Origin: a bacterium
GTDB lineage: Bacteria; Patescibacteriota; Microgenomatia; UBA10105; UBA927
Reading direction: 5' to 3'
Assembly: GCA_021817785.1 (NCBI GenBank)
Contig: JAKAFY010000015.1
Location: 1 to 40,729, forward strand
Length of the DNA: 40,729 nucleotides
The position numbers were made by a program, and so were the translations under genes. Of this stretch, positions 6,439 to 19,810 are shown in pieces; positions within the stretch are counted from its first letter, which is position 1, and each line of letters opens with the position of its first letter. The notes under the pieces are model-generated. The model was not told the DNA's origin. It saw only the letters and a list, made by a program, of their open reading frames with translations, and made no database searches.

Positions 6439-7650
6439 TCAGGATGCTCTAGAAAATTTGTCGATGACGGCATCGAGAGAAAGATCCTCACGTTCTTTTG
6501 TCGTCATATTCTTAAGCTGCACAACACCCCGTTTTGCTTCATCCGGGCCCTGGATCACGACGTAGGGGATGCCTTTGCGGTCTGCATATTTCAATTGTTT
6601 TTCGAGTTTATCCGCCGTGGGATACAGGTCAACGGATATACCTGCATTTCGTAGTGTTTGTGTAGTACGTAAGGAAGCGAGACGACCGTCGGGCGAGAAC
6701 ACTGTTACGAGCACTTGTCCGCCAGTAGTCAGTACTGGGGTCAGACCCAACTGATCCGCTGCTTCCAACGTGCGGTCAAATCCCAAACCAAATCCCGTGC
6801 CGCCGATGTCTTTCCCCGCTAGTTTTTGAACGAGGCCGTCGTAGCGCTCTCCGCCTAGGACTGATAAATCTCCTGCGTCCGGGATGACAACTTCCCAAAT
6901 CGGACCCATTGAATATGAGAAAGAACGGGCAATCGTTGGATCAAATTCATACCAGTCATCCGAAAATCCGTAGTCCTTGAGGTATTTCAGGATAAACGAT
7001 ATTTCTTCGTTCGGCTTGAGGTTTTTGACGTAGGTCAGATACTCTTTGGCTTTGTCCGGCGCTATACCTTTGCGGTTCATTTCGGCTAGCACCCCTTCAT
7101 CTCCGATTTTTTTGATTTTGTCGATAGAGACGATGGCTTCGTACGGCATATCGGCAAATAGTGCGCGGGAGTTGATGCGTACGAGTGCCCGTTTGAATCC
7201 CAGTTGTCGGTAGATGTCGAGAGAAAGCGCAATGACTTCTGCGTCAGCGTCCGGGGTTTTGACGCCAAAAATATCCGCGTCTACCTGGATAAACTCGCGG
7301 TAGCGGCCTTTTTGGGGCTTTTCCGAACGGAATGCCGGCTGTATTTGGTAGCGCTTGAACGGAAACGTCAGGGTGTTTTGGTACTCTGCAATCACACGGC
7401 AGGTTGGTACCGTTTGGTCATACCGCAGAGCAACATCGCGGTCTCCCTGGTCTTTGAATTTGAAAAACAGCTTTTCGTCTTCACCTATAGCCCCGGTAAA
7501 TATTTCCAGAGGTTCCAACGTCGGCGTCTCGAGCGGCGAGTATCCCCACGATTCGCAAATGGTGGCAAGCTTATCTTTGAGCCACTTGCGCTTGGCTGCC
7601 TCCGCCGGCAGAAAATCCCGGAATCCTTTGAGCGGTTGGATGGTATTCAT
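6439..7650 (-). CDS. hisS: Histidine--tRNA ligase
   Basis: 403 residues. Charges tRNA-His in the cytoplasm. Class II features: N-terminal LKGFRDFLPAEAAKRKWL (motif 1 region), motif 2 FKRYQIQPAFRSEKPQKGRY then REFIQVDADIFG, the LGGERYDGL segment, motif 3 GGTGFGLGFDRTLEA, and a C-terminal anticodon-binding domain (VLVTVFSPDGRLASLRTTQT to the end). The anticodon domain and motif 2 Arg favour HisS over the HisZ paralogue. Odd: the histidine A motif, usually RGLDYYT, reads RSFSYSMG; the Arg stays but the D-Y-Y triad becomes S-Y-S. The start is at MNTIQPLKGF; upstream in-frame sequence is the shadow of the preceding gene. It lies 2 nt after the small EamA gene and is the last gene of the his operon. 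Confidence 0.93.
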   Translation of the reverse strand: MNTIQPLKGFRDFLPAEAAKRKWLKDKLATICESWGYSPLETPTLEPLEIFTGAIGEDEKLFFKFKDQGDRDVALRYDQTVPTCRVIAEYQNTLTFPFKRYQIQPAFRSEKPQKGRYREFIQVDADIFGVKTPDADAEVIALSLDIYRQLGFKRALVRINSRALFADMPYEAIVSIDKIKKIGDEGVLAEMNRKGIAPDKAKEYLTYVKNLKPNEEISFILKYLKDYGFSDDWYEFDPTIARSFSYSMGPIWEVVIPDAGDLSVLGGERYDGLVQKLAGKDIGGTGFGLGFDRTLEAADQLGLTPVLTTGGQVLVTVFSPDGRLASLRTTQTLRNAGISVDLYPTADKLEKQLKYADRKGIPYVVIQGPDEAKRGVVQLKNMTTKEREDLSLDAVIDKFSRAS

Positions 7651-7652
7651 AG

Positions 7653-8075
7653 TTATCGTGATAACATAACTGTCCCGATAAGTACAACAATGACCCCGAT
7701 AATTTTGATGGTCGACAATGTTTCGCCAAAGAACAGGAGTCCGGTGATGACACCGCCTATGGCAATACCCCCGGTGACAAATGGGATAAGCAGCGAGATC
7801 GGTGCGTTTTTCGACATGGCATCGACAAATAAAAATTGTGCGAAAAACCAAATCAGTCCGGCAAGTGCGGCGATACCCGCATAATTGTTCGCGTGTTTCA
7901 GAATATCACCCGAGGATTTGGTAAGCAGTAGGGTGATCAGAGACGTGACAAAGATGCCGAATGCAAAAAAACCTACGCCTGCGATAAGCGGCAATTTTGA
8001 TTGATAGATTTTCGTAAGCGCATTTGCTGCGGAATATCCGAGAGCCGATGCGACTGCCATGGTAATCCAGTTCAT
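7653..8075 (-). CDS. Small EamA-like membrane protein (single-repeat DMT)
   Basis: 140 residues with about four helices, one EamA half-unit. It carries LIWFFAQFLFVDAMSKNAPI and then a GLLFFGETLSTIKIIGVIVV ending, typical of the last two helices of DMT proteins. Half-size members act as dimers; the substrate is unknown. Its ATG overlaps the TGA of the M24 peptidase gene (ATGA) and hisS starts 2 nt after its stop, so it is translated as part of the his operon. A histidine or peptide-related transport role is guilt by association only. Confidence 0.85.
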   Translation of the reverse strand: MNWITMAVASALGYSAANALTKIYQSKLPLIAGVGFFAFGIFVTSLITLLLTKSSGDILKHANNYAGIAALAGLIWFFAQFLFVDAMSKNAPISLLIPFVTGGIAIGGVITGLLFFGETLSTIKIIGVIVVLIGTVMLSR

Positions 8076-9136
8076 AGTGTAATAAGTACTTTTGGTGATT
8101 TTGAAAGGACCTCTGTGCCGTTCGCAGTTAAGCGTACCAAATCTTCGATGCGAATGCCATATTGTCCTTCGATATAGATGCCGGGTTCGACGGTGATTAC
8201 CATATCGGTTTTGAGTATTTCATCTTTCGTAGCACTCAATCTCGGCGCTTCGTGGATGGCAAGTCCTACGGCATGTCCCAGGCTATGTGGATAGGTGGGA
8301 AAGTCCGCTTCCGCGATGATTTCTTTGGCAGCTGCGTCCAGCGTCGCCCCGTGGCGCTCACCGTCTATGAGAAGCTCCATTGCTTTTTCATTTGCGGACA
8401 GCGTTGTTTCATAGGCCCGCACCCATTCGGGTTTGGGGGTCCCAAGAAAAACGACGCGCGTCATGTCTGCGCAATACCCGTTTACGCTGGCGCCAAAGTC
8501 CAAAAGGATGAGTGAGCCGTTGCGCAGCGGGCTATTGCCACGGGATTCATAATGCGGTTGGCTGCTGTGTTCGTTAAACGCGACAATGGGGGAGAAGGCG
8601 TTTCCTCCCGCTTTGACTTTGCAAAAACTTTCGATTTCCCATGCAAGTCGGGACTCCGTGACTCCCGGACGGATGCGTTTGCGTATATAACTAAAACACT
8701 GATCGGTAATTTTTGCCGCGAGCTTTATGTGTTCTATCTCGTCCTTCCGTTTGATCATGCGCTGTTCTTCTATGCGATTCCTGGTTGGTATAAAGGCCAC
8801 GTCAGTGAGGGTGTCTTTGAGTTTTGTAAATTCCGCCACCGTGAGATTGTCGTCCTCAAACCCGAGTTTTTTGATACCGAGCTTCGTGGTCAGATTCAGC
8901 ACTTCTTTGGAGAGGGGATTTTCGCGAGAGATTTGTATTACTTCCACGCCCTCCAGCGCTTTCGCCTGTTCGACGTAGAGCAAGTTCGTAAACAGATATT
9001 TCGTATCATTGGAAAGCAGGATGTAGCTTTCCCGTTCCTCGGGCGCTACGCCGATAAATCCGGTGAGATACCGGATATTTACCGGATTGGTTACCAATAG
9101 CGCATCGATATCGTGTAAAGAGTCCATATCGTTCAT
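8072..9136 (-). CDS. M24 family metallopeptidase (Xaa-Pro aminopeptidase/dipeptidase type)
   Basis: About 354 residues. N-terminal creatinase-like domain (DIDALLVTNPVNIRYLTGF) and C-terminal pita-bread catalytic domain. All five metal ligands are visible: LLDFGASVNGYCADMTR (two Asp), YPHSLGHAVGL (His), ITVEPG (Glu) and IRIEDLV (Glu). It removes N-terminal residues ahead of proline or cleaves Xaa-Pro dipeptides. The start is taken at ATG 9136, just after the hisE stop; ATG 9127 is equally possible. It sits inside the his operon and its stop overlaps the EamA start. It may feed peptide-derived amino acids into the pool; this is inference. Confidence 0.9.
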   Translation of the reverse strand: MNDMDSLHDIDALLVTNPVNIRYLTGFIGVAPEERESYILLSNDTKYLFTNLLYVEQAKALEGVEVIQISRENPLSKEVLNLTTKLGIKKLGFEDDNLTVAEFTKLKDTLTDVAFIPTRNRIEEQRMIKRKDEIEHIKLAAKITDQCFSYIRKRIRPGVTESRLAWEIESFCKVKAGGNAFSPIVAFNEHSSQPHYESRGNSPLRNGSLILLDFGASVNGYCADMTRVVFLGTPKPEWVRAYETTLSANEKAMELLIDGERHGATLDAAAKEIIAEADFPTYPHSLGHAVGLAIHEAPRLSATKDEILKTDMVITVEPGIYIEGQYGIRIEDLVRLTANGTEVLSKSPKVLITL

Positions 9137-9149
9137 TTTATCACGATGG

Positions 9150-9425
9150 TTACTTTCCTTTCCGCCTTTCCAGTTCATCGTAGATATCTTCGGGTGTGAG
9201 GCCCAACGCCGTAATCAGTACGGTCATGTGAAACAACAGATCCGCAAGTTCTTCTATCTGGCGGATCCGATCCGCATTTTTCGCCGCAATGACTACTTCG
9301 GTGGCTTCTTCCCCGATTTTTTGAATCAGCCGGTCGTTGTCGGACAATAATGCTGCCACGTACGAGCCCTTCGGTTTTTCCGATTGCCGGTTTTGTATGA
9401 TGGTAAACAATGCATCTATATTCAT
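9150..9425 (-). CDS. hisE: Phosphoribosyl-ATP pyrophosphatase
   Basis: 91 residues, a stand-alone HisE (step 2, PR-ATP to PR-AMP + PPi). The MazG-like helical signature is clear: KIGEEATEVVIAAKN (Glu cluster) and IEELADLLFHMTVLITALG with the metal-binding E..D pattern, then LTPEDIYDELERRKGK at the C-terminus. In many bacteria this domain is fused behind HisI; here it is separate, its ATG overlapping the hisI TGA (ATGA). The longer in-frame start at 9452 lies inside hisI and is not used. Confidence 0.95.
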   Translation of the reverse strand: MNIDALFTIIQNRQSEKPKGSYVAALLSDNDRLIQKIGEEATEVVIAAKNADRIRQIEELADLLFHMTVLITALGLTPEDIYDELERRKGK

Positions 9426-9748
9426 GCAATTTCCTCTCTTTCCGTAAAGCACGAGATACGCCCGGTGTGACAGGTGGGCCCCTTGGGATTCACCCGGACG
9501 AGTACCGCATCGCCATCGCAGTCCAGTGTCATGGACACAACCTGCAAAATATTTCCTGACGTTTCACCTTTTTGCCACAGTGTGCCCCTGCTTCTGCTCC
9601 AGAACCAGACAAGCTTCGTTTGCCGTGTCTTTGTGAATGCCTCGCGATTCATGTAGCCAAGCATGAGCACCATGCCCGTACGGTCATCCTGGATGATAGC
9701 CGGCACAATACCATTTCCCTTTGTAAAGTCTATGGTTTTTGCGTTCAT
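9422..9748 (-). CDS. hisI: Phosphoribosyl-AMP cyclohydrolase
   Basis: 108 residues; opens the adenine ring of PR-AMP (step 3). Diagnostic stretch: [20 protein letters not shown] and TGRISCF, holding the Mg-binding Asp set and the zinc cysteines. LGYMNREAF and [20 protein letters not shown] also match the family. Normal length for the monofunctional form. Overlaps hisF (start) and hisE (stop) by ATGA, indicating coupled translation. Confidence 0.96.
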
Positions 9749-10509
9749 ATTGCCTCCCGTACGGACACGCCGCCTTGCGCAAGATATGTTTTGAGTTCCG
9801 GTATGGAAAGCTCATTGAAGTGGAAAAGGGATGCGGCGAGTGCCGCATCGGCTTCACCCTTTGTAAACACATCGAGAAAATCTTTTTTGGTACCGCCCCC
9901 GCCGGAGGCTATGATAGGTACATTGACCGCACGGGAAACCTGACGTGTGAGTTCCAGGTCAAAACCTTTTTTCGTGCCATCCTGATCGATACTCGTCAAA
10001 AGTATTTCTCCCGCCCCTCGCTCTGTTGCCTCTTTGGCCCAATCGATTGCCGATAATCCGGAATCTTTCGTTCCGCCGTTTATGAACACATTCCATCGGC
10101 GTGGAGCAATCTGCTTTGCATCGAGGGAAAGTACGACGCATTGACTCCCAAATGCATTGGCGCAGTCGTTGATAAGCGAAGGGTGTATGACGGCACCGGT
10201 GTTAACAGATACTTTATCTGCGCCGGCGCGAAGAATCATGCGCATATCAGATATGCTTCGGATTCCGCCTCCGACGGAAAAGGGGATTGTAATCTCTTTT
10301 GCGGTACGAGTGACCACGTCCAGAAGTATCGGCCGGTTTTCCGTCGTTGCTGTGATATCGAGAAACGTGAGTTCATCGGCCCCTTCGGCGTCGTATTTTT
10401 TTGCCAGGACAACAGGGTCTCCGGCGTCACGAAAATTGATAAATTGTATGCCTTTGACTACTTTTGCCTTCGTCATATCGAGACAGGGAATGATGCGTTT
10501 GGTAATCAT
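9745..10509 (-). CDS. hisF: Imidazole glycerol phosphate synthase, cyclase subunit
   Basis: 254 residues, a (beta/alpha)8 barrel. The catalytic aspartates are present: [16 protein letters not shown] (Asp11 equivalent) and VVLSLDAKQ (Asp130 equivalent). The phosphate-binding GGGIRS and ASGGGGT loops and [17 protein letters not shown] are all typical of HisF. It forms the synthase with HisH, encoded just upstream with an ATGA overlap; together they yield IGP and AICAR. Nothing suggests it also does the HisA reaction, and its sequence is ordinary HisF. Confidence 0.97.
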
Positions 10510-11117
10510 AGATATGCCTCCACAAAATTTTTTATAAACTGCATGCCTGCCGCTCCACTTTTTTCCGGGTGAAACTGGGTGGCCACCACGTTTTTTGCCG
10601 CTATCGCGCTAACAAATGATTCGTCGTACACTGTGGTGCCGATGACCACAGACGGATCATCCGGTGCACAGATATAGCTATTCACGAAATAGTATTCGCT
10701 GCCTTGCGGTATGCCGGCCCAAAGCGGATTGTCCGGTATAGCTTTTGGGTAATACACCTGGTTCCATCCGATTTGCGGCACCTTCACCGTCATACGAAAT
10801 CTACGAACGGATCCGCGCATAACGCCGAGACACAGCGTATTTCCCTCCTCACTTTGATCAAATAATACCTGCATGCCAAGACAAATTCCCAGAAACGACA
10901 CCCCAGCCGATATTTTTTCTCTCAGTACCGTGTCGAGTTTTTGATCTCGTAGATTTTTCATTCCTTCGCCGGCTGCGCCAACGCCTGGTAAAAGGAGGGC
11001 TTCAGCCCGTGAGATAACCTCAGGTTTTCCCGAAATGATATACGGCATGCTCAGCCTATCGAACAGATTTGCCAGACTTCCCAAATTGCCGACTCCGTAG
11101 TCAATGATTGTTATCAT
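10506..11117 (-). CDS. hisH: Imidazole glycerol phosphate synthase, glutaminase subunit
   Basis: 203 residues, class I glutamine amidotransferase. The nucleophile Cys lies in [13 protein letters not shown] and the His-Glu pair in TQFHPEKSG; the N-terminal [14 protein letters not shown] is the usual HisH opening. It releases ammonia for HisF. Start and stop both overlap neighbours by 4 nt (hisB upstream, hisF downstream). In the E. coli gene order hisA sits between hisH and hisF; here the two overlap directly and hisA is missing. Confidence 0.97.
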
Positions 11118-11707
11118 AAGCTTCCTTTCGTGGATGGGATCTCACCGCGACTCTCGCTGTCTTTTGCGACAGCCATCCGGCAGGCGCGGCCCATTGCCTT
11201 AAAAATCGCTTCGGCTTTGTGGTGATCATTGCGGCCGTTCTCGACTTTTATGTATACGTTTGCCCGCGCGTTTTGGGCAAACGCATCCCAGAAATCGTAG
11301 ACAAGCTCGCTTGAAAGATCGCCAATCCTCTCCCGCGTAAATGCGCAGTCAAACCGGAATGCGTAGCGACCAGAAAAATCTATCGCGACGGTCGCAAGCG
11401 CTTCATCCATAGGCAGGATGAAAAATCCGTACCGTGTGATGCCTTTTTTGTCCGCAAGTGCGGTTCCTATGGCTTGGCCAAGAACAATACCAATATCTTC
11501 AACCGTGTGGTGATCATCCACGTTCATATCCCCGGTAGCGGTGATATTCAGGTCAAAGCGTGCATTTTTCGTAAATGCCGTAAGCATGTGTGATAGAAAA
11601 CCAGTCGGAATCATCAACGTGCTAGAACCGGCCCCGTCCAGTGCAAGGCGAATGTCGATATCTGTCTCATTGGTTTTCCGTGTTATTTGTGCCGATCGGG
11701 TGTTCAT
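11114..11707 (-). CDS. hisB: Imidazoleglycerol-phosphate dehydratase
   Basis: 197 residues, the monofunctional dehydratase. Both metal-binding repeats are present: VDDHHTVEDIGIVLGQAIG and NDHHKAEAIFKAMGRACR. The N-terminus has the ITRKTNETDIDIRL type of opening. Converts IGP to imidazole acetol phosphate (step 7). The histidinol-phosphatase domain that is fused to this enzyme in enterobacteria is not here; it is instead on the C-terminus of the upstream HisC. Translationally coupled to both neighbours. Confidence 0.96.
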   Translation of the reverse strand: MNTRSAQITRKTNETDIDIRLALDGAGSSTLMIPTGFLSHMLTAFTKNARFDLNITATGDMNVDDHHTVEDIGIVLGQAIGTALADKKGITRYGFFILPMDEALATVAIDFSGRYAFRFDCAFTRERIGDLSSELVYDFWDAFAQNARANVYIKVENGRNDHHKAEAIFKAMGRACRMAVAKDSESRGEIPSTKGSL

Positions 11708-13272
11708 AGGTTCTCCTTTCGGAACGAGGCAAACGCAGCGTTCAGATTGCCGTTCGTATCCGTCCGGATATACCGGATGCCAAGATTTACTGCGAGTCCA
11801 GCGTCAGATGCACGATCGCCACATACAAACGACGCATCCCGGTCCATGTTCATCGTGGCAAGAAACGTATCAATAAGCGAAGTATTTGGCTTCCTGCAGG
11901 AACAGTTATCGTCCGGCATGTGCGGGCAAACGTATATTTTGCGGAAGATAACATCGGTTTTTTTCAGACGTGTAAGAAGCTCGCTCTGCACAGTAGTGAA
12001 ATTCGACCGGGGGTATCCTTTTGACCCCAGCCCGTCCTGGTTGGTCACCATGACTAGGATATATCCCGCGTTCGTCAGGCGTCGCAGTGTTTGCGTGACT
12101 CCGGGTAAAATGCGGAGTTCTTTCACAGAATTTATCTGATAGGTGTCCTGCGGTTCAAAGATAAGCGTTCCGTCTCGGTCGAATACTGCGACTTTTTTCG
12201 GTGTAAGCGATTTATTGCATACGGTACGCGCAAAAATTCGTATAAACCGTTTGGTTTCCGCTACTGTACCAATGCTTATCCGGAGGCAGTTTTCTATCCC
12301 GGGTTTGGATTGGCGGCGAACCAGAACACCATTTCTTCGCAGTGTTTCTTCTATTTGTACGGCGTTTGGTACGCGGATTAACAAAAAATTTGCGGCTGAG
12401 GGGTAAAACGGCACGGCGTTTTTCCGGAAAAACGCCTCCAGCATCGGCTTGGACTGCGTCATGACTTCCGTGGTATACGCACGCATGTCGGGAATATCTG
12501 AGAGCGCGGCGGTGGCGGCGATTGCGGCCAATAGATTTACGTCGTACGGGCCTTTGACTTTGGTAAGTTCGGCAATGAACACGGGATTTGCAAGTATGTA
12601 TCCGATCCGAAGCGCTGCCAGCCCGAATGCTTTTGAGAACGTGCGTGTGATGATAATATTTGGGTTTTGTGCAATCAAGGACACTGCGGTCACCCCGGAA
12701 AATTCCGCGTATGCTTCGTCGACGAGGATGACAGATCGTGGCGAGCGTGTGGCTATCCGTTTGATGTCGGAAACAGATACCAGGGTGCCCGTCGGATTAT
12801 TCGGATTACAGATGATGATAAGTTTCGGATTCCGGTCACACGCTGCGAGCACTTGATCGAGCGGATACGCCCCGGTACGGGTATCGTACGGCGGGGATAC
12901 GACCGACGCGCCAGCTATCTTTGCATACTGTGTGAACATGGAAAACGATGGTTCCGGGACTACAACCGTATCGCGCGCGCCCACAAACGTCCGGAATATG
13001 AGGCTTATCGCTTCATCTGACCCGTTCGTGATGAGGATATTCTCTTGGGGGGCCCCGGCATATCGGGCAAGTGCCATTTCTAGGGCTCCGTATTCCGGAT
13101 ACATCTGAAGTTTGCCCTGTATGGCTTCCATAAGCGCGGTCTTTACCCGTTTTGAAGGGAGAGCAGTACGCTCATTAAAGTCCAGGATAAGTCCCCGGTA
13201 CGAACGCCTGCCCGGAGGCGGCGCCGTATACGGCTTCATCGCTTGTATGTTGGGTAATGCACCGTTGTTCAT
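11704..13272 (-). CDS. hisC: Fused histidinol-phosphate aminotransferase / histidinol-phosphatase (HisC-HisN)
   Basis: 522 residues, two enzymes in one chain. Residues about 1-355 are a fold-type I aminotransferase: LILDFNERTALPSKRVK, YPEYGALEMALARY, CNPNNPTGT, VDEAYAEFSG, and the PLP lysine in TRTFSKAFGLAALRIGY at residue 214. After a short linker, residues about 360-522 are a HAD phosphatase of the HisB-N type: VFDRDGTLIFEP (Asp365, Asp367), MVTNQDGLGSKGYP, the zinc loop CPHMPDDNCSCRKPN and FVCGDRASD. The chain would carry histidinol-phosphate formation and its dephosphorylation (steps 8 and 9). The reading frame is continuous, with ATGA overlaps at both ends, so this is a true single gene. 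In enterobacteria the same phosphatase domain is fused to HisB. Confidence 0.95.
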   Translation of the reverse strand: MNNGALPNIQAMKPYTAPPPGRRSYRGLILDFNERTALPSKRVKTALMEAIQGKLQMYPEYGALEMALARYAGAPQENILITNGSDEAISLIFRTFVGARDTVVVPEPSFSMFTQYAKIAGASVVSPPYDTRTGAYPLDQVLAACDRNPKLIIICNPNNPTGTLVSVSDIKRIATRSPRSVILVDEAYAEFSGVTAVSLIAQNPNIIITRTFSKAFGLAALRIGYILANPVFIAELTKVKGPYDVNLLAAIAATAALSDIPDMRAYTTEVMTQSKPMLEAFFRKNAVPFYPSAANFLLIRVPNAVQIEETLRRNGVLVRRQSKPGIENCLRISIGTVAETKRFIRIFARTVCNKSLTPKKVAVFDRDGTLIFEPQDTYQINSVKELRILPGVTQTLRRLTNAGYILVMVTNQDGLGSKGYPRSNFTTVQSELLTRLKKTDVIFRKIYVCPHMPDDNCSCRKPNTSLIDTFLATMNMDRDASFVCGDRASDAGLAVNLGIRYIRTDTNGNLNAAFASFRKENL

Positions 13273-14564
13273 ATGTTTTTTTTAAACCGGATGGTTACGG
13301 AATTTTTGTGCGCCGGCAATTTCTCCGCGTCGGCAACCGTTTCTATTGTTTTTCTAATTGCTGATAATCCCTTTTTCGTACATTTCTGAACCTGCATCCA
13401 TTTGCCATAGGCATCCACCCCGAGCGGGGGATACATTTTGGCCATGCCGCCCGTCGGCAGGACATGATTGGCTCCCGTGGCGTAGTCCCCGGTCGCTTTT
13501 GCGGTCCAGGGACCTAAAAACACCGAACCGGCATTTTGTACACGGGCCACAAGCGTTTCGGGCCGGCTTGTCATAATTTCCAAGTGCTCCGGCGCATACC
13601 GATTGGTAAATGCAATGGCATCATCAATCGTCGGAACGACGGCAAACAGACCATACGTTTCAAGAGATTTTCTTGCGCGATCGCCCGTCGGGAGTGCCGC
13701 AAGCTGCTTTTCGATTTCTGCAATCGTTTGTTCAGCGATTGTTCGGGATGTCGTGATGAGCACGCACGCAGAATCTTCGCCGTGTTCGCCGTCTGCTAAA
13801 AGATCGGCAGCGATATAGGACGGATTTGCCGTTTCGTCGGCGATAATGAATATTTCCGAAGGACCTGCCGGCATGTCAATGCTTACGGTAGACAATGCCG
13901 CCATTTTGGCCGCCGTTACCGACGCATTACCAGCTCCGAAAATTTTATAAACCTTCGGAATCGTCTGTGTGCCATAACACATGGCGGCAATCGCCTCTGC
14001 GCCGCCGACTTTAAACATGTCTGTGATTCCGACCATATCGGCAGCGACCAGTGTTGCTGCCGGAATAGCGCCATCTGCGCGCGGCGGCGAACACATAACG
14101 ATGTTTTTGCAGCCTGCGATGTTTGCCGGGATGGCTGTCATGAGGACAGAAGAGGGATATATAGCCTTGCCGCCCGGTATATAAAGTCCTACCGTGTTTA
14201 TGGCACGCCACTCTCGCCAGACGGTGATGCCGCGCTCTGTGATGACAACGGTATCTTTTTTTCTGGGCAGCTGTGCGCGCTGGACTGCTGTAATATTTTG
14301 TATCATTTGCCGAAGGGAACGGATGAGTTGTGGTGTCACTTTCCGGTATGCCTGTTGAATTTCCCTGCGATTGACCCGGATTGAGGCATATGCACTGCCG
14401 TAGCGTTTTGTGTATTTCTCCCATACCGCGTCATCTCCATTTTTCCGTACGGATTCCATGGCGGAAAGAACAGACGGCATAATCTTGGTATCCCGCCCAG
14501 CTGACCTGTTGACGATGCGTTGGTAATCTGCTGCAGTAAGTTCTGATAGGTTTATGGGTTTCAT
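13269..14564 (-). CDS. hisD: Histidinol dehydrogenase
   Basis: 431 residues; NAD-dependent oxidation of histidinol to histidine. Family marks: LYIPGGKAIYPSSVLMTAIP, ICGAGNASVT-like segment (KIFGAGNASVTAAK), MPAGPSEIFIIADE, GEHGEDSACVLIT with a zinc-site His, YAPEHLEI, TGANHVLPTGG and AHKNSVTIRF with the C-terminal His ligand. The zinc ligand that is Gln in E. coli HisD (SQAEH) is Asp here (ADGEH), a conservative change for a metal site. It starts 3 nt after hisG ends and overlaps hisC-hisN by ATGA. Confidence 0.96.
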   Translation of the reverse strand: MKPINLSELTAADYQRIVNRSAGRDTKIMPSVLSAMESVRKNGDDAVWEKYTKRYGSAYASIRVNRREIQQAYRKVTPQLIRSLRQMIQNITAVQRAQLPRKKDTVVITERGITVWREWRAINTVGLYIPGGKAIYPSSVLMTAIPANIAGCKNIVMCSPPRADGAIPAATLVAADMVGITDMFKVGGAEAIAAMCYGTQTIPKVYKIFGAGNASVTAAKMAALSTVSIDMPAGPSEIFIIADETANPSYIAADLLADGEHGEDSACVLITTSRTIAEQTIAEIEKQLAALPTGDRARKSLETYGLFAVVPTIDDAIAFTNRYAPEHLEIMTSRPETLVARVQNAGSVFLGPWTAKATGDYATGANHVLPTGGMAKMYPPLGVDAYGKWMQVQKCTKKGLSAIRKTIETVADAEKLPAHKNSVTIRFKKNI

Positions 14565-14567
14565 AGG

Positions 14568-15431
14568 CTATAAAATACTATTTTCTATCGGCATAAGCCG
14601 TATGTTTGTTGCGCCCAACGCACGGAGCCGTCCGAGCATACTCCAGAATGCTTCTTCGTTTACCACTCCCTCCAACGTGCTGTCTGTCGTTTGCGCTTGG
14701 CTTGCTCGTGGCGTGAGCGATGGAATAATTTTTTTAAGCTTTTGGGAAGCAGCCTGTGGGGCGGTAAAGATGATAAATTTGCAGTTTTTTGCGGAAAGGA
14801 CGCTCTTGAAACGTGTCACGAGTTCCCGGATACGCTGGCTGCTTCGGTTGGCCCGGATGGACTGGGTATTGGCGATAAGCACCGCCTCTGAACGATAAAT
14901 AGGAGTAAGCAGCCGTAGGTCGTTTACCAGAAGCGTGCTACCTGATGAGACGAGGTCTACGATTGCCGATGCGGCTCCCAAAGATGGCATGACTTCAACC
15001 GATCCTTCGATGGGTATAATGGTTACGTTTATATTTTGTTCGCGGAAAAATCGTGCAGCGGATTTGGGATAGGACGTTGCTATGATTTTGCCTGCAAGAT
15101 CGGATACGGAAGAAACAGATGATTCTTTCGGGACAGAAACGGCGAGTGTGCAGAACCCATAACGGAGGTTTAACAGTTTTTTAACTTCGGCTCGCTTTTC
15201 GTTGAGGACGTTTTGTCCGAGTATACCAATATCGACCGTACCGGTAGCTACAAGACTTGGAATATCATCATCACGGACATAGACGATATTCATCGGAAAA
15301 TTCCGGCACGCCGAAAACAGCTTTCGGCCGTAGCTTTCGAACTCCAAGCCGGAAGCACGCAAGAGCCCAAGCGTTTCTTCTGTAAGACGCCCATCTTTTT
15401 GGACAGCTAGTCGTAGTGTATTTGTTTTCAT
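14568..15431 (-). CDS. hisG: ATP phosphoribosyltransferase, long form (HisG-L)
   Basis: 287 residues; first, committed step (ATP + PRPP to PR-ATP). Catalytic core with LRLAVQKDGRLTEETLGLL, GTVDIGILGQNVL, and the PRPP loop around VEVMPSLGAASAIVDLVSSG. The last about 80 residues (from FIIFTAPQ to LRALGATNIRLMPIENSIL) form the PII-like regulatory domain of the long form, which binds histidine for feedback inhibition and does not need HisZ. The ATG at 15431 is chosen because AAGGA lies 8 nt upstream; the GTG at 15437 is too close. It is the first gene of the operon, immediately behind a tRNA-His-like element. Confidence 0.95.
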   Translation of the reverse strand: MKTNTLRLAVQKDGRLTEETLGLLRASGLEFESYGRKLFSACRNFPMNIVYVRDDDIPSLVATGTVDIGILGQNVLNEKRAEVKKLLNLRYGFCTLAVSVPKESSVSSVSDLAGKIIATSYPKSAARFFREQNINVTIIPIEGSVEVMPSLGAASAIVDLVSSGSTLLVNDLRLLTPIYRSEAVLIANTQSIRANRSSQRIRELVTRFKSVLSAKNCKFIIFTAPQAASQKLKKIIPSLTPRASQAQTTDSTLEGVVNEEAFWSMLGRLRALGATNIRLMPIENSIL

Positions 15432-15443
15432 ATTCACATTCCT

Positions 15444-15519
15444 TGGGGTGACTGACGGGTAACGCTCCCGCTACTTCCTGCTCCACAGGCAGGCGCTCTG
15501 CTATTGAGCTACAGTCACC
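15444..15519 (-). tRNA. tRNA-His(GTG)-like element in the hisG leader (tRNA gene or mRNA tRNA mimic)
   Basis: Read on the minus strand this folds as a full tRNA of 76 nt: G-1, a 7-bp Watson-Crick acceptor stem (GTGACTG/CAGTCAC), T8A9, D-stem GCTC/GAGC with a 7-nt loop, anticodon stem CCTGC/GCAGG with loop CTGTGGA (T33, anticodon GTG, G37), a 5-nt variable loop, T-stem GCGGG/CCCGT with 7-nt loop, C73 and encoded CCA. G-1:C73 and GTG are the main identity elements for HisRS. Unusual: the T-loop is AGCGTTA instead of TTCRANY, and the D-loop AATAGCA lacks GG. The final A of CCA is the first A of the AAGGA hisG ribosome binding site. It may be a tRNA with a strange elbow or a mimic used for regulation. 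By contrast, tRNA-Leu at 19715 has no encoded CCA. Confidence 0.6.
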
Positions 15520-15748: not shown

Positions 15749-15777
15749 ATGTTAACATGATGACATATCTGTGTCAA
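15749..15777 (-). promoter_or_regulatory. his operon promoter with palindromic operator
   Basis: On the minus strand, TTGACA (15777-15772), 17-nt spacer, TAACAT (15754-15749). The perfect 10-bp palindrome ATGTTAACAT (15749-15758) covers the -10, and TGACA direct repeats flank it. A repressor bound here would block RNA polymerase; the HisR/YerC-like protein encoded just upstream is the natural candidate. The leader from here to hisG is about 300 nt and, besides the items listed separately, holds a CGTTC-GCAG-GAACG hairpin (about 15527-15540). Confidence 0.65.
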
Positions 15778-15883: not shown

Positions 15884-16189
15884 TTAGCGATTGCTGAAAA
15901 GGCGAGACGCGATTGCTTCATATCCGCCGGCACCGTTTTTGAGCCAGTGGGCGACGCGACTCACCGTCGTGGTGGATACATTAAGCTCATGTGCTATATC
16001 CAGATATGCATGTTTTTGCACTAATCGTTTTACAATCTGCCAGCGGTTAGCGAATTCGTTGAGCTCGGGGAGTGTGAGTAAATCCCGAAAAAAATTCGCA
16101 GCTTCTTCATCGGAGTGAATTTCCCGAATCGCCTGAAACAACTCTTCTATTTCCGGAGTGGGGTATGGGTGCGACGGCTTCGTACGCAT
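15884..16189 (-). CDS. TrpR-like YerC/HisR family transcriptional regulator
   Basis: 101 residues of the YerC/YecD TrpR-superfamily type: EELFQAIREIHSDEEAANFF, RDLLTLPELNEFANRWQIVK, then the helix-turn-helix AYLDIAHELNVSTTTVSRVAHWL and a GAGGYEAI tail. YerC-like proteins next to his genes in Firmicutes have been predicted to be histidine repressors (HisR); here the gene lies directly before the his promoter on the same strand. It could respond to histidine and bind the palindrome at 15749-15758. The ATG at 16189 is preferred because a GATACT box ends 8 nt upstream; ATG 16195 is only 2 nt from the box. Confidence 0.88.
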   Translation of the reverse strand: MRTKPSHPYPTPEIEELFQAIREIHSDEEAANFFRDLLTLPELNEFANRWQIVKRLVQKHAYLDIAHELNVSTTTVSRVAHWLKNGAGGYEAIASRLFSNR

Positions 16190-16197
16190 AGGCATAT

Positions 16198-19714: not shown

Positions 19715-19799
19715 GGGCGAGTGCTGGAACGGTAGACAGGCAAGTCTCAAAAACTTGTGGCGTTAACGCGTCGTGAGAGTTCGATTCTCTCCTCGCCCA
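19715..19799 (+). tRNA. tRNA-Leu(CAA)
   Basis: 85 nt. Acceptor GGGCGAG/CTCGCCC, anticodon stem CAAGT/ACTTG with loop CTCAAAA (anticodon CAA), long class II variable arm, canonical T-arm GAGAG-TTCGATT-CTCTC, discriminator A73. CCA is not encoded. Confidence 0.96.
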
Positions 19800-19810
19800 C
19801 AATGAGAGTT

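Follow-up and report, generated by a model that had tools for sequence, protein, structure and literature searches.

A tRNA-His with an alternative elbow stands before hisG in a Microgenomates bacterium and is probably a second tRNA-His gene

We analyzed a stretch of 40,729 nucleotides, here called the window, from the genome of a Microgenomates bacterium (G000). Directly before hisG it carries a tRNA-His at 15444..15519 on the minus strand. Judging from comparisons among genomes, this element is probably a second, translation-competent tRNA-His gene, with which the histidine operon begins. The original prediction described it as a mimic dedicated to binding HisRS. That interpretation is partly supported. 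The tRNA-His identity, the second copy and the placement were right, and the step from the altered elbow to a mimic was wrong.

ARAGORN calls a tRNA-His(GTG) at 15444-15518 of the minus strand. The Rfam model RF00005 scores the element at 52.8 bits (cut-off 29, E 1.1e-8), and model R2 at 91.6 bits. Given ARAGORN and Rfam, a chance origin of the fold is not an issue. All stem pairs are formed (22/22), with an 8-bp acceptor stem that includes G-1:C73, the D-stem GCTC/GAGC and the T-stem GCGGG/CCCGT. On the minus strand, G-1 lies at 15519, the anticodon GTG at 15486-15484 (loop CTGTGGA), C73 at 15447 and the encoded CCA at 15446-15444. The element presents the complete cloverleaf, the G-1:C73 pair and the GTG anticodon of a functional tRNA-His. 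It also shares U8, A14, U33, G19 and C56 with bacterial tRNA-His of the G-1:C73 type (RF00005). From the CCA end to the hisG ATG (15431-15429) there are 12 nt. Between them is a Shine-Dalgarno-like AGGAAT (15438..15443, minus strand), and the last A of the tRNA, A76, forms part of AAGGA. All this agrees with the original prediction, from the tRNA geometry to the shared A.

The elbow differs from the canonical one (G18, G19, T54, U55, C56, A58). The D-loop is AATAGCA (15499..15505, minus strand; A14 A15 x A18 G19 C20 A21) and the T-loop is AGCGTTA (positions 54-60; 15460..15466, minus strand), as first read. Only G19 and C56 are kept. The element has A18, A54, G55, U58 and A48 where bacterial tRNA-His has G18, T54, U55, A58 and Y48. 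This elbow had been considered lost. The comparison with other species indicates that it is instead an alternative elbow, conserved across them and replaced in concert at positions 18, 48, 54, 55, 58 and 60.

In the variants, A replaces G18, T54 and U60 of canonical tRNA-His, G replaces U55, U replaces A58 and a purine replaces Y48, and G19 and C56 are unchanged. The T-loop reads AGCRTTA in 17/17 genomes of the variant class. A purine occupies position 48 in 16/16 distinct variants versus 1/40 canonical sequences (P=4e-13, kinship ignored). The G272 variant has G15 together with G48. The single canonical exception (L051, from G027) has T15 with A48, a reversed Levitt pair. In the variant family, 100% of the stem cells are paired, against 38-59% in slid controls, and nine pairs changed on both sides. 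The T-stem GCGGG/CCCGT is invariant throughout the variant class. This stem and the location within the his operon, right in front of hisG, are further differences from the usual bacterial tRNA-His. The alternative elbow would be built from the tertiary pairs A18:G55, G19:C56, A54:U58 and A15:A48. It may be inherited from a working tRNA-His lineage and is not a sign of mimicry.

A competing hairpin of the T-arm, GTAGCG-GGAG-CGTTAC, had also been proposed. It does exist in the window. However, its pairing is disrupted in relatives (GCAGCG/CATTAC in G005, GGAGCG/CGTTAC in G002), and the tRNA T-stem never varies. We rejected this hairpin, which is not conserved.

Two sister leaders differ in their elbows. 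The leader of G171 (L078) has a canonical tRNA-His and that of G188 (L084) a variant one. The HisG proteins of these sister species group together (100/99), and the two tRNAs have an unusual anticodon loop in common, TTGTGGG. Nevertheless, the two tRNAs are different at every coupled elbow position, which suggests conversion or fast concerted evolution.

The variant is not confined to his leaders. We searched 374 genomes of the class for its D- and T-loop pattern, leaving the anticodon open. There are matches in 17 genomes, one in each, all with GTG. A scan of 84,980 species gave 17 records, all from Microgenomates and labelled Daviesbacteria, Gottesmanbacteria, Levybacteria, Blackburnbacteria or Microgenomates group. 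Of the copies in class genomes, 13 of 17 are free-standing, away from hisG. We trained a tRNA-His covariance model on both classes. It gives every listed tRNA-His at least 80 bits and other tRNAs at most 72. By this measure, with the next-best matches checked, 12 of the 13 genomes with free-standing copies, G067 among them, have the variant as their sole tRNA-His, with no other match above 80 bits. In the exception, G272, another tRNA also has a GTG anticodon and possibly a G-1.

The clearest case is G067, a single-contig chromosome of 820 kb. We read its 44 tRNA matches, and the only tRNA-His is the variant. It sits in a His-Arg(UCG)-Lys(CUU) tRNA cluster, and the canonical tRNA-His occupies the same cluster in the genus of the window. 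The variant very probably decodes His codons in G067. Since model scores point the same way for most of the others, the alternative elbow very probably works in translation. A non-canonical elbow therefore does not exclude function, and the altered elbow is no argument for a mimic dedicated to HisRS, because free-standing sole tRNA-His genes have the same elbow.

The window copy is not the only tRNA-His of its genome, an assembly of 1.28 Mb in 38 contigs with 96.7% completeness and 44 tRNA matches. The second one (C6:3277-3352) is canonical, with the ordinary T-loop TTCGAAT. The other tRNAs that we read in this genome also have T-loops of the ordinary type. Most of the genomes used are metagenome assemblies, in which a contig such as C6 can be misbinned. 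This doubt is lessened by the presence of the same canonical tRNA-His throughout the genus (6/6 related genomes). Decoding by the leader copy is thus not forced in G000. Within the genus, hisG is present in G000, G002 and G005, and the leader copy occurs in exactly those three. A 'tRNA-Pyl' (CTA) call at C6:5187-5261 of G000 looks, by comparison with relatives, like a mis-framed tRNA-Arg(UCU). Apart from the leader element, the window contains a single tRNA, tRNA-Leu(CAA), at 19715-19800 of the plus strand.

The operon downstream is encoded on the minus strand. It begins with a long-form hisG, for ATP phosphoribosyltransferase (14568..15431; TIGR00070 186 bits, TIGR03455). Then follow hisD, a hisC-hisB(N) fusion, hisB, hisH, hisF, hisI and hisE (9150..14564). 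No ORF of the operon scanned (6439-15431) has hisA as its best family. The histidyl-tRNA synthetase gene hisS (6439..7851, minus strand; TIGR00442 350 bits) probably starts near 7640, as the TIGR00442 match begins at residue 72. The original prediction placed hisS last in the same operon. It is codirectional with the his genes, and membership is plausible. However, a peptidase gene and a weak EamA-like ORF intervene, and membership is unproven.

To compare his leaders, we took the best 22 hisG matches among 280 class genomes, all from long-form his operons. In 15 of the 22, the leader is followed by a tRNA-His and then hisG. The placement before hisG is conserved, in line with the original prediction. 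Most leader copies in relatives carry an ordinary TTCRANT T-loop, so the location does not select a mimic-like elbow. The distance from C73 to the ATG varies within the class between 3 and 143 nt, as would suit a gene better than an operator of fixed position. It is 3 nt in five genomes (G171, G136, G188, G153 and G081). In the window, G002, G005 and G261, the Shine-Dalgarno lies outside the tRNA fold, and other genomes have gaps of 49-143 nt. We also looked at duplicates of tRNA-Trp and tRNA-Tyr as heads of other biosynthetic operons, and this is not the case.

Sixteen of the 22 leaders contain the T-box sequence TGGGACCGCG and, upstream, a short hairpin with the loop GTCACGA. The CAC in this loop fits a His specifier. 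Thirteen of these 16 leaders carry the tRNA-His, that is, 13 of the 15 operons with the tRNA. The Rfam T-box model (RF00230) found four of the 12 leaders examined, with E values between 4e-7 and 0.01, and a fifth weakly; every score was well below the gathering score. The his-leader T-boxes of the class are therefore divergent, with a very short Stem I. Like known T-box riboswitches of his operons, they have TGGGACCGCG, a competing terminator and the CAC specifier. Unlike them, they reach at best 45.8 bits against the 93-bit cut-off, and the regulated unit starts with the gene of the ligand tRNA. In G002, G171 and G094 the tRNA directly abuts the U-run of the terminator, so that a separate promoter would not fit between them. 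Ahead of the tRNA and after the T-box terminator, three leaders (L082, L086 and L088, from G136, G146 and G065) have the hairpin GTGGAACGT...ACGTTCCTACCAC in common. Outside the class, G427 also has the T-box sequence and a tRNA-His ahead of hisG, with 255 nt from the tRNA to the start codon.

The window leader itself shows no T-box up to E=5. It belongs to six operons without T-box (G182, G173, G104, G262, G113 and the window), each with a yerC/hisR-type gene adjoining hisG. Among his operons, T-box and HisR appear to be alternatives to each other. In the window, this TrpR-family regulator gene is upstream of the operon (15884..16195, minus strand; TIGR02531 65.5 bits). In Firmicutes and some other phyla, HisR of this family has been reported to repress his genes (PMC9413887). 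A promoter-like TTGACA-17-TAACAT (15749..15777, minus strand) comes from a consensus scan whose site count is no better than chance. The perfect palindrome ATGTTAACAT (15758-15749) overlaps it. As a guess, and suggestive only, this palindrome is a possible HisR operator.

These observations fit a tRNA gene that would be transcribed together with hisG and the following genes. The ordinary tRNA maturation enzymes could excise it from the his mRNA, and hisG would keep a short 5' leader with its Shine-Dalgarno. Maturation from the operon transcript is favored by the canonical sequence in most leaders, the variable distance to the ATG, and the presence or absence of the tRNA between close relatives. 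In most relatives, the tRNA-His and the his genes would stand behind a His-specific T-box. Uncharged tRNA-His would then raise expression of tRNA-His itself, of the biosynthetic enzymes and possibly of HisRS. In the window genome, a HisR-type repressor of the TrpR family probably takes the place of the T-box. In genomes with the 3-nt gap, initiation on the uncut transcript may compete with the tRNA fold, and excision may give a nearly leaderless mRNA.

By analogy with thrS, the element could be a translational operator, on which free HisRS (or HisG) would block hisG initiation. We consider this unlikely and found no specific support for it. HisG was reportedly found long ago to bind His-tRNA in Salmonella. 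The element retains the His identity elements G-1:C73 and GTG. The fold is close to the ATG, both in the window and in the five relatives with 3 nt, and hisS lies downstream in the same direction. A second tRNA-His elsewhere in most genomes with a leader copy would suit a cis role too; it was not found in G171 and G188, whose assemblies are within the 81-85% completeness group. Like the E. coli thrS operator, the element is a tRNA-like fold with the cognate anticodon that overlaps the ribosome binding site, as A76 adjoins AGGA. However, thrS precedes its own synthetase gene. Here a complete tRNA with acceptor stem precedes hisG, hisS is far downstream, and tRNAs of this kind are free-standing genes elsewhere. 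The thrS operator is without an acceptor-arm equivalent (PMC9976931, also for the tRNA-His identity rules). Moreover, the elbow argument does not hold, the spacing to the start codon is not fixed among relatives, and most leader copies are canonical. Finally, G154 has the leader type of its HisG sister G261 (100/99) but without the tRNA. The HisG tree has too low a resolution to date such gains or losses.

One leader copy would suit the operator better. In G173 (L079), a tRNA-His located about 233 nt before the hisG match has G33, in the anticodon loop CGGTGAA. U33 is lost, and the fold and G-1:C73 are intact. This copy looks unfit for decoding and is the best candidate for a non-decoding one.

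It is quite unlikely that the main role of the element is that of a processing signal, whose 3'-end cut would free the hisG start and leave a nearly leaderless hisG mRNA in relatives with the shortest gap. There, C73, 3 nt and the ATG follow each other, with no room for a Shine-Dalgarno outside the fold. On the other hand, that site is outside the fold in the window, G002, G005 and G261, and gaps elsewhere reach 49-143 nt. Such processing is also compatible with the tRNA gene that we favor, not exclusive of it. A decaying duplicate without present function is very unlikely. The genome does have a canonical tRNA-His, and some leader copies look irregular and less regular than free ones (T-loop GGCAGAA in G081, D-loop AAAAGGA in G002). 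However, a single broken pair, in the D-stem of G115, is the only stem defect among the leader copies. There are compensatory changes, variant-specific tertiary couplings are retained, and the association with hisG persists in several families.

The original prediction knew of no his operon with this layout, and we found none described in the open-access literature. The same literature, whose silence is weak evidence, gave nothing on T-boxes in the Candidate Phyla Radiation, on a T-box riboswitch upstream of a tRNA, or on histidine biosynthesis with a tRNA in Microgenomates. A text search of a genome-wide T-box survey (PMC2494555) gave no tRNA genes as targets. On this weak evidence, a T-box that senses the tRNA-His encoded in its own operon has no published description that we could find. 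Stem I is naturally truncated, without the elbow-binding motif, in some T-boxes (review PMC7583486). Such T-boxes would tolerate an altered elbow.

More broadly, we propose tentatively that the His T-box of Microgenomates may control the gene of its own ligand, with tRNA-His first and the his genes after. Excision of the tRNA would free the hisG start. The tRNA could carry an elbow rebuilt in concert (15:48, 18:55, 54:58) and still work on ribosomes, although T54, U55 and A58 are absent. If true, nature would offer an example of a T-box that drives the tRNA it senses, with positive feedback predicted under histidine starvation. It would also be a natural test of the need for the universal elbow in translation, modification, RNase P cleavage and T-box recognition. 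An altered T-loop alone would be no sign of mimicry.
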